DNA of 42,231 bases from an uncultured Negativicutes bacterium (GTDB lineage: Bacteria > Bacillota > Negativicutes > Acidaminococcales > Acidaminococcaceae): contig CAMTOO010000008.1 in NCBI GenBank assembly GCA_947074185.1, forward strand, positions 1 through 42,231. Reading direction: 5' to 3'. Below, piece after piece: positions 30,328 to 34,328 of this stretch (its first letter is position 1; each line of letters starts with the position of its first letter). Below the pieces are notes generated by a model. That model ran no database searches, had not been told where the DNA came from, and worked only from the letters and a program-made list of their open reading frames with translations. Made by a program: the position numbers and the translations under genes.

Positions 30328-30852
30328 TTATTTAAGCTCTGGAATTAACAAGCCATAATTACCATCTTTACGACGATATACTACATTTGCACTACCAGCA
30401 TCTGGATCATAGAAAATAAAGAAATCATGATTCAATAGGTTCATTTGCAAAATAGCTTCTTCAGCGTTCATTGGATTCATGCTGAAAGTTTTGCTTTTAA
30501 TAATTGCAAATTCGTTATCTTCTTCTACTGCCGGTGCATCAGGAACATCTTGGAAATTGCTGTATTTACGTTTCATTAATCTAGTTTTGTATTTTCTAAT
30601 TTGACGTTCGATTTTATCAACAACTTGATCTATAGAACCGTACATATCTTTGCTTTTTTCTTGCGCTCTTAGCAGGATACCACTTGCGGGAACTGTAATC
30701 TCAGCGATGTGCTCTCCATTTTCTACTTTAAGAACAGCAACTATATCGTCAACAGCCTTAAATTGTTTTGTGATTTTAGTCACTTTCTTTTCTACATACT
30801 CTCTCATTGCAGGTGTAACTTCGATGTTTCTACCTTTTACTAATACGTTCAT
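30328..30852 (-). CDS. hpf: ribosome hibernation promoting factor, long form
   Basis: A 174-aa ribosome-associated protein. The N-terminal S30AE domain (about 1-98) binds the decoding region; the C-terminal domain (about 118-174; KTFSMNPMNAEEAILQMNL, HDFFIFYDPD) dimerises to form 100S ribosomes. This is the long type found in Firmicutes. GGAGG lies 9 nt before the ATG. The leader contains two small hairpins (30895-30909 and 30873-30888). The upstream region holds a TATAAT and a sigma-H-like sequence, fitting stationary-phase control. Confidence 0.94.
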   Translation of the reverse strand: MNVLVKGRNIEVTPAMREYVEKKVTKITKQFKAVDDIVAVLKVENGEHIAEITVPASGILLRAQEKSKDMYGSIDQVVDKIERQIRKYKTRLMKRKYSNFQDVPDAPAVEEDNEFAIIKSKTFSMNPMNAEEAILQMNLLNHDFFIFYDPDAGSANVVYRRKDGNYGLLIPELK

Positions 30853-31014: not shown

Positions 31015-31746
31015 CTATAAAATCTTAGACAAGAAATTCTTGGTGCGTTCTTCTTTTGGATTGTTAAAGACTTCTTCTGGAGAACCTTCTTCTACGATGT
31101 AACCTCCATCAATAAAAAGAACTCTATCCCCTACTTCACGGGCAAATCCCATTTCGTGGGTTACTACTACCATTGTCATGCCTTCGTTAGCCAAACTTTT
31201 CATGACATCTAGAACTTCAATTACCATTTCTGGATCTAGAGCAGAAGTAGGCTCATCAAAAAGTAATGCTTTTGGCTTCATGCATAACGCACGAGCTATA
31301 GCAACACGTTGTTGTTGCCCACCAGAAAGTTGATCAGGATAACTTCTTATCTTATCAGACAAACCTACTTTTTCTAAGTAAAGCTCTGCCAAAGCCTCTG
31401 CTTCACTTTTGCTCATATTGCGCACTTTCATAGGTGCTAACGTTAGATTTTCTAAAACATTCATGTGCGGGAATAAGTTAAATCTTTGAAATACCATTCC
31501 TGCTTCCTTGCGCACAGCATTAATATTAGATTCTCCACTAAGTTTAATGCCATCAAAAATTATCTCCCCACCAGTTGGTTCTTCTAAATAATTTATACAA
31601 CGAAGCAATGTACTTTTACCACTACCAGAAGGTCCAATAATTACCACTACTTCTCGTTCTTTAACAGACATATCAATACCTTTTAGTACCTCTAGATTCC
31701 CAAAAGATTTTTTTAAGTCTTTAATTTCTATAAGATTTTCACTCAT
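31015..31746 (-). CDS. glnQ: polar amino acid ABC transporter ATP-binding protein
   Basis: A 243-aa ATPase of the GlnQ/HisP type. Walker [10 protein letters not shown] (about 37-45), Q-loop [10 protein letters not shown], signature LSGGQQQR and Walker [13 protein letters not shown] are all present. It powers amino acid import with the permease gene, which it overlaps by 4 nt (ATGA). No convincing terminator follows before the hpf promoter region. Substrate cannot be resolved among glutamine, arginine, cystine and similar. Confidence 0.92.
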
Positions 31747-32399
31747 TTTGTTTCGAACCTCCTTTCAAGAAGCCCTACTAAACGAGCTACTGTAAAGGTC
31801 ATTATTAAATAAATAATAGCTACTGCCATCCAGATTTCAAAAGAGGCATAAGTTCTTGCAATAATAAGTTGTCCACGTCTAGTTAATTCTTCAAAACCAA
31901 TTACTGATACTAAAGAAGAATCTTTGAGCATGGCAATAAACTCATTGCCCAAAGGAGGAATAATACGTTTAAACGCTTGAGGTAAAATAATAAAACGCAT
32001 AGTTTGCCACCAAGTCATGCCTAAACTTCTACCAGCTTCCATTTGACCTTTGTCTATTGATTGAATACCACCTCTAAATATTTCAGCAATATAAGCACCA
32101 CTATTTATAGAGCAAGCTGCAATAGCAGCAAAGAAAGGATCAACCCTTTGCCCAATAAGAGATGGTAACGCAAAATATACTAAAAATATTTGTACTAAAA
32201 GTGGGGTTCCTCTAATAAAATCAACATAGCAATTTCCTAGAAAACGTAAAAAAGACCATTTTCCAAGACGTGCTAAAGATACCACAATACCTATAGCTAA
32301 ACCAAAACCAACACTAAGCGCTGTAACTTCAACTGTTATTGCAGCACCAGCGAGCAAGAGAGGTATAGCATTTTGTAAGAGTTCGAAATTTATATCCAT
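31743..32399 (-). CDS. glnP: polar amino acid ABC transporter permease
   Basis: A 218-aa inner-membrane permease of the HisM/GlnP family with about five helices. The EAA loop is [20 protein letters not shown] (about residue 120-140). The ribosome site AAGGG is weak and about 10 nt away. An 80-nt gap with a hairpin separates it from the binding-protein gene upstream; it overlaps the ATPase gene downstream. Confidence 0.92.
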
Positions 32400-32479: not shown

Positions 32480-33265
32480 TTATTTTTTAGCTGTTTCACC
32501 AAACCATTGTTGGTAAATTTTGTCATAAACGCCATTTTTCTTAAGGTCATTTAATGCTTTGTTCACTTGATCCATTAGTTGAGTATTACCTTTTTTAGTA
32601 ATCATACCATAGGATTCAGCTTCCATCACGTCACCAACAGTTTTTGCAGTTTCGCTACCGCCTTGAGCTAAGTAGTAACCTGCTACTGGACTATCAACAA
32701 TAACTGCATCAGCACCTTTATTTTTTAATTCCATAAATAATTCGGAACCAGTATTGAAGTTAGTAACTTTTGCACCTTTAACAGTTTCAGCTTTTGCTGC
32801 ACCTGTAGTACCAATTTGTACTGCGATTCTTTTATTTTCTAAATCAGCAATACTTTTAATTGAATCATCAGTTTTGTTAACAACGATGATTAAACCTGAT
32901 GTATAGTATGGTTCAGAGAATTCTACTACTTTTTGACGATCTGGTGTAATAGTCATAGCAGAAATTGCAAGATCAATATTGCCTGCATTTACTGCTGGAA
33001 TAAGTCCATCAAATCCTAAATTTTGGATTTCTACTTTCATGTTTAATTGTTGACCAATTGCACGAATTAAATCCATATCAAAGCCCGTGAACTCACTTGA
33101 ACCTTCTTTTTGAAATTCAAATGGAGCAAATGTAGGTTCAGTACCAACACGTAAAACTTTTGGAGCATCTGTTTTTGGAGTTTCAGCTTTCTTTTCTCCG
33201 CCACCGCAACCAACAAGTGCTAACATCATAGCTAAACTGCACAACAACACTAAAAACTTTTTCAT
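32480..33265 (-). CDS. glnH: polar amino acid ABC transporter substrate-binding lipoprotein
   Basis: A 261-aa lipoprotein with lipobox ALVGC (Cys20) and a mature type II periplasmic binding fold (about 38-258). Segments LRVGTEPTFAPFEF, GFDMDLIRAIG and NAGNIDLAISAMTITPDR are typical of the SBP_bac_3 family (glutamine, histidine, arginine, cystine). AGGAGG lies 7 nt before the ATG. It leads the transporter operon. Upstream are a possible close promoter (33291-33320) and the structured RNA, whose transcript runs in the same direction. Confidence 0.93.
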   Translation of the reverse strand: MKKFLVLLCSLAMMLALVGCGGGEKKAETPKTDAPKVLRVGTEPTFAPFEFQKEGSSEFTGFDMDLIRAIGQQLNMKVEIQNLGFDGLIPAVNAGNIDLAISAMTITPDRQKVVEFSEPYYTSGLIIVVNKTDDSIKSIADLENKRIAVQIGTTGAAKAETVKGAKVTNFNTGSELFMELKNKGADAVIVDSPVAGYYLAQGGSETAKTVGDVMEAESYGMITKKGNTQLMDQVNKALNDLKKNGVYDKIYQQWFGETAKK

Positions 33266-33290
33266 AAAATAGCCTCCTAAGATTTATAAA

Positions 33291-33320
33291 ATTTTATTAA
33301 TTATTGAAATTAACTTTCAA
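33291..33320 (-). promoter_or_regulatory. possible separate glnH promoter
   Basis: On the minus strand TTGAAA (33315-33320) and TAAAAT (33291-33296) are 18 bp apart, just before the glnH ribosome site. If real, glnH does not need the upstream structured RNA's promoter and that RNA could be an independent transcript. Confidence 0.4.
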
Positions 33321-33334
33321 ATATTTAACAAATG

Positions 33335-33536
33335 ACAACCCAGCTGACCTGGTTTTCGCCCCCACACTCGCCTGCTGGAGATTTCGCTCATAAGCCTAAG
33401 CTCCCCACTACTAACCCTCTCGCATTTTGCGGCAGGACTTACTTCTAAGCTGCACCGTGCTCACAGTAATTATACTGCTTACGTGGATCGTTTCGCCTGC
33501 AACTGGCATCGACTTTCAACCACAGACCTGAGTTGT
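33335..33536 (-). ncRNA. highly structured ~202-nt RNA, class not recognised
   Basis: This GC-richer block lies in a 382-bp gene-free gap (33266-33647). Its ends pair: ACAACTCAG (5', 33528-33536) with CTGGGTTGT (3', 33335-33343). The predicted +1 of a strong promoter falls on the first base of that stem. Inside are several local stems: TGGTT/AACCA, CAGTA-TAAT-TACTG with a CACGT/ACGGTG extension, GCAGCTTA-GAAG-TAAG-tc-CTGC, CGCA-AAA-TGCG and GGAG/CTCC, plus purine-rich joints such as GGCGAA, GGGGGCGAAAACC. I find no lysine, cobalamin, SAM, TPP, FMN, glycine, T-box, tmRNA, SRP or RNase P core. No reading frame fits. It could be the glnH leader, a raiA-motif-like RNA (hpf lies three genes downstream) or a 6S-like RNA; all are hypotheses. 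Confidence 0.75.
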
Positions 33537-33542
33537 AATACT

Positions 33543-33571
33543 ATTATACTTTTTCTAATAATTCAATGCAA
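33543..33571 (-). promoter_or_regulatory. strong promoter of the structured RNA
   Basis: On the minus strand TTGCAT (33566-33571), 17 bp, TATAAT (33543-33548). The predicted start is at about 33536, exactly the base of the closing stem of the RNA. Confidence 0.75.
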
Positions 33572-33584
33572 GAAATTTTTATTC

Positions 33585-33614
33585 TTGACGAGATACACCT
33601 TTAAATATTATACT
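33585..33614 (+). promoter_or_regulatory. promoter of the HD-GYP gene
   Basis: TTGACG (33585-33590) and TATACT (33609-33614) are 18 bp apart, about 33 nt before the HD-GYP start. It is divergent from, and nearly adjacent to, the RNA promoter. Confidence 0.6.
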
Positions 33615-33647
33615 TATTTTACTACATATTTGAACGGATGGTTTTTT

Positions 33648-34328
33648 ATGATTTCTATTCCACAGTACTTAGACTTTACGTCTAACAAGAAGACTAAGGA
33701 AATCAGTTTATTTTTCTTAGACCTCTTAGAACGGAAAAACAAAAGATTGTTCTTGCATTCCCAACAGGTTGCAAACTATGCATCTAGCATTGCTGCTAAA
33801 TTAGGCTTGTCGCCTACGGAAATTGGCACAATAAAGAATGCTGCCTTATTACATGACATAGGCCACCTTAGTGTGCCAAATGTTATTTTAGCCAAGAATC
33901 CTTATTTAACAACTAAGGAAATGGCTGTCTATAAGAGGCATTGCATTGCTGGTTATAGCATGCTAGAAAACATGGCTGATTTTAATAATGTTATTGATAT
34001 TATTAAAAGTCATCACGAAAAGTGGGATGGTAGTGGTTATCCTGATAGGTTAAAAGGAGTTAATATTCCTCTAGGTGCTAGAATAATAGCCGTAGCCAAT
34101 CATTATGATCGCAACATTAATCCATGCACACAACAATGGCAAAAAACACACCAAGAAGCCATTAAAGAGTTGTTAGATGGTGCTGGTACTGATTTTGATC
34201 CACAAGTGGTAAAAGCATTTATCGAAGCTATTGTGCCTGGTAAGGTTTCACTTAAAGCAAAAGATGCTCCAAAAGCTACAAAAAAACGCTCTGCAAAATC
34301 TGCAGCGCCTAAAAAAGAAAAAAAATAA
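33648..34328 (+). CDS. HD-GYP domain phosphohydrolase with lysine-rich C-terminal tail
   Basis: A 226-aa cytoplasmic protein. The HD-GYP domain (about 30-195) has HD at 69-70, HH-E at 122-124 and the GYP motif at 130-132 (DGSGYPDRLKG), so it is a candidate c-di-GMP (or related dinucleotide) phosphodiesterase. There is no sensor domain. Residues 199-226 form a tail with 12 Lys/Arg among 28 residues plus Ala and Pro, resembling histone-H1-like nucleic-acid-binding tails. The ATG at 33648 has GGATGG 6 nt upstream; the open frame extends upstream through the antisense of the structured RNA and is not real there. Confidence 0.85.
   Translation: MISIPQYLDFTSNKKTKEISLFFLDLLERKNKRLFLHSQQVANYASSIAAKLGLSPTEIGTIKNAALLHDIGHLSVPNVILAKNPYLTTKEMAVYKRHCIAGYSMLENMADFNNVIDIIKSHHEKWDGSGYPDRLKGVNIPLGARIIAVANHYDRNINPCTQQWQKTHQEAIKELLDGAGTDFDPQVVKAFIEAIVPGKVSLKAKDAPKATKKRSAKSAAPKKEKK

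Follow-up and report, generated by a model that had tools for sequence, protein, structure and literature searches.

The gap at positions 33,266 to 33,647 of the window, by which we mean the whole analysed stretch of 42,231 nucleotides from an uncultured Negativicutes bacterium, very probably carries a canonical gene for the raiA (ModT) noncoding RNA, a discrete RNA that acts in trans rather than a switch for the neighbouring transporter genes. raiA/ModT is a large, abundant bacterial noncoding RNA, present in thousands of species. The family has already been curated, structurally solved and genetically studied, and the copy in the window is an ordinary, already known member of it.

The gap extends exactly from the start codon of a substrate-binding-protein gene (33265, minus strand) to the start of a divergent HD-domain gene (33648, plus strand). 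Inside it, the structured RNA occupies 202 nt of the minus strand. The GC content of this part is 0.52, against 0.345 for the whole window and 0.16-0.22 for the remaining gap, and none of the 202-nt stretches sampled across the window matches it. The elements of the RNA and its promoter are as follows.

33335..33536, minus strand: raiA (ModT) RNA, RF03072, 202 nt, full length (cmscan 200.4 bits); the sole genomic copy
33528..33536, minus strand: P1a helix, 5′ strand ACAACUCAG, 9 bp with 33335-33343; two-sided changes at 9/9 pairs
33335..33343, minus strand: P1a helix, 3′ strand CUGGGUUGU; supported by sequence and covariation
33498..33504, minus strand: P3 loop AGUUGCA, first half of pk-1; RNA positions 33-39, pairing with 83-89
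33448..33454, minus strand: pk-Loop UGCAGCU, second half of pk-1; RNA positions 83-89
33543..33548, minus strand: -10 box TATAAT of the raiA promoter; TATAAT in 44/54 loci
33566..33571, minus strand: -35 box TTGCAT, with a 17-nt spacer; TTGC recurs at the same place in relatives

The assignment comes from the Rfam cmscan search, where 33335-33536 on the minus strand scored 200.4 bits (E = 1.1e-51) against RF03072, whose curated gathering threshold is 101.3 bits. The match spans model positions 1-209, so it is full length and not truncated. A single tRNA was the only other Rfam match in the window, and one copy of raiA RNA was found in the window's own genome of 1.57 Mb. The score is among the best of the copies compared, so this copy is not divergent.

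The promoter on the minus strand, TTGCAT-17-TATAAT, ends 6 nt ahead of where the 9-bp closing stem begins. Its -10 box is a perfect consensus, while the -35 box matches TTGACA at only 3/6 positions; TTGC is nevertheless found at -35 upstream of raiA in most of the 54 loci. Judged from these sequences, the RNA appears to have its own conserved promoter of the sigma-A (housekeeping) type, as in clostridial ModT. Re-reading of the gap thus confirmed the anatomy given in the preliminary description, with its GC-richer island, its promoter and its closing stem. The suggestion made there that the RNA might be a raiA-motif RNA was right, with strand, length, start and promoter all correct, and the proposed Rfam scan with the raiA and 6S models returned a clear raiA match and no 6S. 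The label "unrecognised", with its implication that the RNA fits no known class, has to be given up in view of the full-length match to RF03072.

Does the RNA of the window also fold as a raiA RNA? Its single-sequence minimum free energy is not significant (z = -1.47; 18/200 shuffles were as stable), and folding energy was not used as evidence; the structure rests on the Rfam match and on covariation. For the latter, 52 full-length raiA copies were aligned and pairs were counted in the architecture known from the literature, with the P3 hairpin and pk-1 included. The pairing of 28-30 with 171-173 drawn by Rfam was excluded from the pair test as weak, and the P3 hairpin GCC/GGC was preferred to it because P3 is backed by the sequence as well as by the cryo-EM description.

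Over the 49 pairs, 98.2% of cells in the alignment can pair, and two-sided changes occur at 23 pairs. The covariation in relatives that the preliminary description had proposed to look for was therefore found: there are 278 two-sided cells compared with 77 in shuffles, and 0/500 shuffles reach any of the observed values, a comparison that is inflated by the kinship of the aligned sequences. A control in which the 3′ partners were slid by one column, however, retains the kinship, and pairing falls in it to 36-43%; the architecture also agrees with an independently solved structure. In pk-1, 98.6% of cells are paired and two-sided changes occur at 2/7 pairs; of 50 distinct sequences, 17 have C-G in place of U-A and 7 have G-C in place of A-U. 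The pseudoknot of the window RNA matches the 7-bp pk-1 between the P3 loop and the pk-Loop of the cryo-EM structure, in which the raiA fold was solved (PMC11751092); the RNA is described as a monomer (PMC12286853). Many single-stranded bases are invariant in the alignment. In one other raiA copy (L045:8825-9109, minus strand, genome G016) the enlarged P7 region holds a near-repeat of GCAGCTTAGAAGTAAGTCCTGCCGCAG, which comprises the pk-Loop and the 5′ strand of P6.

It is useful to set the RNA in the context of its neighbours, which are listed here from the divergent gene to the end of the co-directional series.

33648..34328, plus strand: divergent HD-GYP-like protein (PF13487, E 1.2e-38)
33291..33320, minus strand: TTGAAA-18-TAAAAT, a candidate for a promoter of the transporter operon's own, 3′ of the RNA and ahead of the gene; weak in the window
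32480..33265, minus strand: amino-acid ABC substrate-binding protein, GlnH/ArgT-like, SBP_bac_3 (Pfam PF00497, E 8.6e-46; best NCBIfam GlnH, below cut-off)
31743..32399, minus strand: amino-acid ABC permease, GlnP-like (domain and NCBIfam profile matches)
31015..31746, minus strand: amino-acid ABC ATPase, GlnQ-like (domain and NCBIfam profile matches)
30328..30852, minus strand: hpf, RaiA/HPF family, long form (PF02482, PF16321, TIGR00741), 2.5 kb downstream of the RNA

The transporter is of the amino-acid type and GlnHPQ-like but stays under the NCBIfam cut-offs. Downstream of the RNA, its genes for the substrate-binding protein, permease and ATPase are followed by hpf and secA. A transporter gene lies 3′ of raiA RNA in 27/32 usable loci of the family and in 16/19 loci of the order and class, and hpf usually comes after it wherever the contig reaches among the 53 loci read from relatives; in these counts, made by hand, genes were labelled by their best BLAST hit. 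The preliminary description had considered a divergent or relocated relative of raiA. The high score rules out divergence, and the recurrence of the position before transporter and hpf shows that the RNA has not been relocated. Location of raiA motifs upstream of periplasmic-binding-protein genes has already been described (PMC11477304). Elsewhere among the relatives, raiA RNA is directly followed by hpf, by a zinc-ribbon gene or by some other gene. The small zinc-ribbon gene (MAFxDKTLxCKDCG...) lies about 30-40 nt after raiA RNA and before the transporter in many class members (L067, L070, L076), and the members with this gene behind raiA RNA are mostly Spo0A carriers.

Compared with RF03072 in general, the window RNA agrees in length, full sequence core, helices, the 7-bp pk-1, sigma-A-type promoter and single copy. 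The locus likewise has an hpf/raiA gene downstream and a transporter (periplasmic-binding-protein) gene directly downstream, as noted in PMC11477304. It differs in the divergent HD-GYP-like gene upstream, whereas most members have comFC beside the RNA. The P7 of the window RNA is of the short kind, a variation normal for this RNA family. C. difficile ModT belongs to the same RNA family and also has a sigma-A-type promoter. However, it forms two isoforms, whose end sites have been mapped, and has a PTS operon downstream, while the window RNA has no clear terminator and is followed by an amino-acid ABC operon, and Spo0A matches are absent from its family.

The divergent gene deserves separate consideration. 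In 35/35 loci of the same family, those of genomes free of GGDEF domains included, the gene lying divergently next to raiA RNA is HD-GYP-like, and in C. difficile the best-mapped consequence of losing raiA is a change in c-di-GMP. Both facts favour the idea that the RNA and the HD-domain protein work as a single unit in this family, which would be an addition to the raiA identity and not an alternative to it. We nevertheless regard such a unit as rather unlikely. Simple shared ancestry explains the gene order, outside the family the HD gene is not the neighbour of raiA, and the HD-GYP lysine and one aspartate position are variable within the family, also in GGDEF-free genomes. The lysine is replaced in most members (HDIGH/Q/L/S/M/T), and the later aspartate is an asparagine in many; we take the lysine and this aspartate to be the usual residues of HD-GYP proteins. 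Among the matches listed for the HD protein, which are general HD-GYP proteins, the best one (Veillonellaceae contig L084) has no raiA RNA nearby.

On its other side the RNA lies 69 nt upstream of the co-directional substrate-binding-protein gene, whose ribosome site falls outside the RNA. In the window, the terminator scan found no intrinsic terminator after the RNA and ahead of the transporter gene, and transcription may therefore run on into the operon. The same scan gave a site 3′ of raiA RNA in 15/53 loci, and the window was not among them. After the closing stem there is a T-rich stretch, with a mean of 7.0 T in the first 12 nt for family members, where the composition of the remaining gap would predict 4.1; in the window it is weaker, with 6 T. 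In 20/25 family loci, versus 8 expected from shuffles, a second promoter-like site was detected behind the RNA and before the transporter gene, and RNA and operon therefore look like separate units in most of the family. The second promoter of the window is weak, with 10/12 matches and TAAAAT as -10, and the scanned region has 17 such sites versus 13 expected by chance.

These features of the boundary bear directly on the riboswitch proposed in the preliminary description, here understood as an element that happens to have the raiA fold and controls the glnH-like transporter operon behind it in cis, either as an amino-acid riboswitch or as an attenuator. Such an element would fit the co-directional position close before the substrate-binding-protein gene with no terminator between them in the window, the frequency of a transporter after raiA RNA in the family, order and class, and the type label "Cis-reg; riboswitch" that Rfam gives to RF03072. 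However, raiA orthologues complement in trans (PMC11706538), and this, together with the separate promoter-like site behind the RNA in most family loci, makes the riboswitch improbable. The variety of next genes in other relatives also counts against it, and in the window the terminator scan gave no recognisable expression platform. The Rfam label itself conflicts with the published trans complementation. A 6S-like RNA or an entirely new RNA class, to which size (about 200 nt) and an own promoter would equally apply, is almost certainly the wrong explanation, for raiA alone reaches the threshold at this place and sequence and pseudoknot match raiA throughout. The 6S RNA as such is refuted for the window, where no 6S family reaches the Rfam gathering threshold anywhere.

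The best reading of the locus is consequently a trans-acting, housekeeping-like raiA RNA and not an amino-acid riboswitch. What can such an RNA do in this family? In C. difficile and C. acetobutylicum the orthologous RNA is abundant and trans-acting, and it influences sporulation and the entry into stationary phase; the C. difficile RNA is very stable, is transcribed from a sigma-A promoter and also affects c-di-GMP and the toxin level (PMC11706538). The earlier remark that raiA RNAs have no known function thus holds for the molecular function, but deletion phenotypes have been published. By homology, we infer that the RNA of the window does the same kind of job as its clostridial orthologues. 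It would be made during growth as a discrete, abundant, stable and compact RNA and, acting in trans, would influence how the cells leave exponential growth, probably in a ribonucleoprotein or as a ribozyme-like device and not as a switch for transporter genes.

The distribution of the RNA sets a constraint on this role. We detected raiA RNA in 57/59 genomes of the family, once in each, and in 54/61 genomes of a sample from the whole class. The two family genomes that lack it are a 63%-complete assembly and an assembly broken into about 330 contigs. Spo0A gave no match in any of 37 sampled genomes of the same family. The GGDEF domain is absent from 22/38 near-complete family genomes, and raiA RNA is present in 21 of those 22 (e.g., G001, G035 and G062), the exception being G025; the window's own genome has five GGDEF matches. 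The lack of Spo0A and the retention of raiA without GGDEF domains mean that the effects on sporulation and c-di-GMP seen in clostridia cannot be the core job of the RNA in this family, where it must do its work with no sporulation and often with no c-di-GMP from GGDEF enzymes. The presence of raiA in non-sporulating bacteria has already been noted by Lence et al. As far as can be told, the raiA literature consulted makes no statement on its retention without any GGDEF enzyme.

The distribution indicates that the published raiA phenotypes (sporulation, aggregation, toxin level and c-di-GMP) are downstream effects in clostridia. We suggest, as a tentative possibility, that the core role of raiA depends neither on sporulation nor on c-di-GMP made by GGDEF enzymes, and that in this family the RNA persists without either, always beside a divergent HD-GYP-like protein with an altered active site, a possible family-specific partner. 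For an abundant and deeply conserved bacterial RNA without known molecular function, the data from this family matter a little as a constraint, and, if the suggestion is true, its small non-sporulating genomes would be a clean place to find the real function of raiA RNA.
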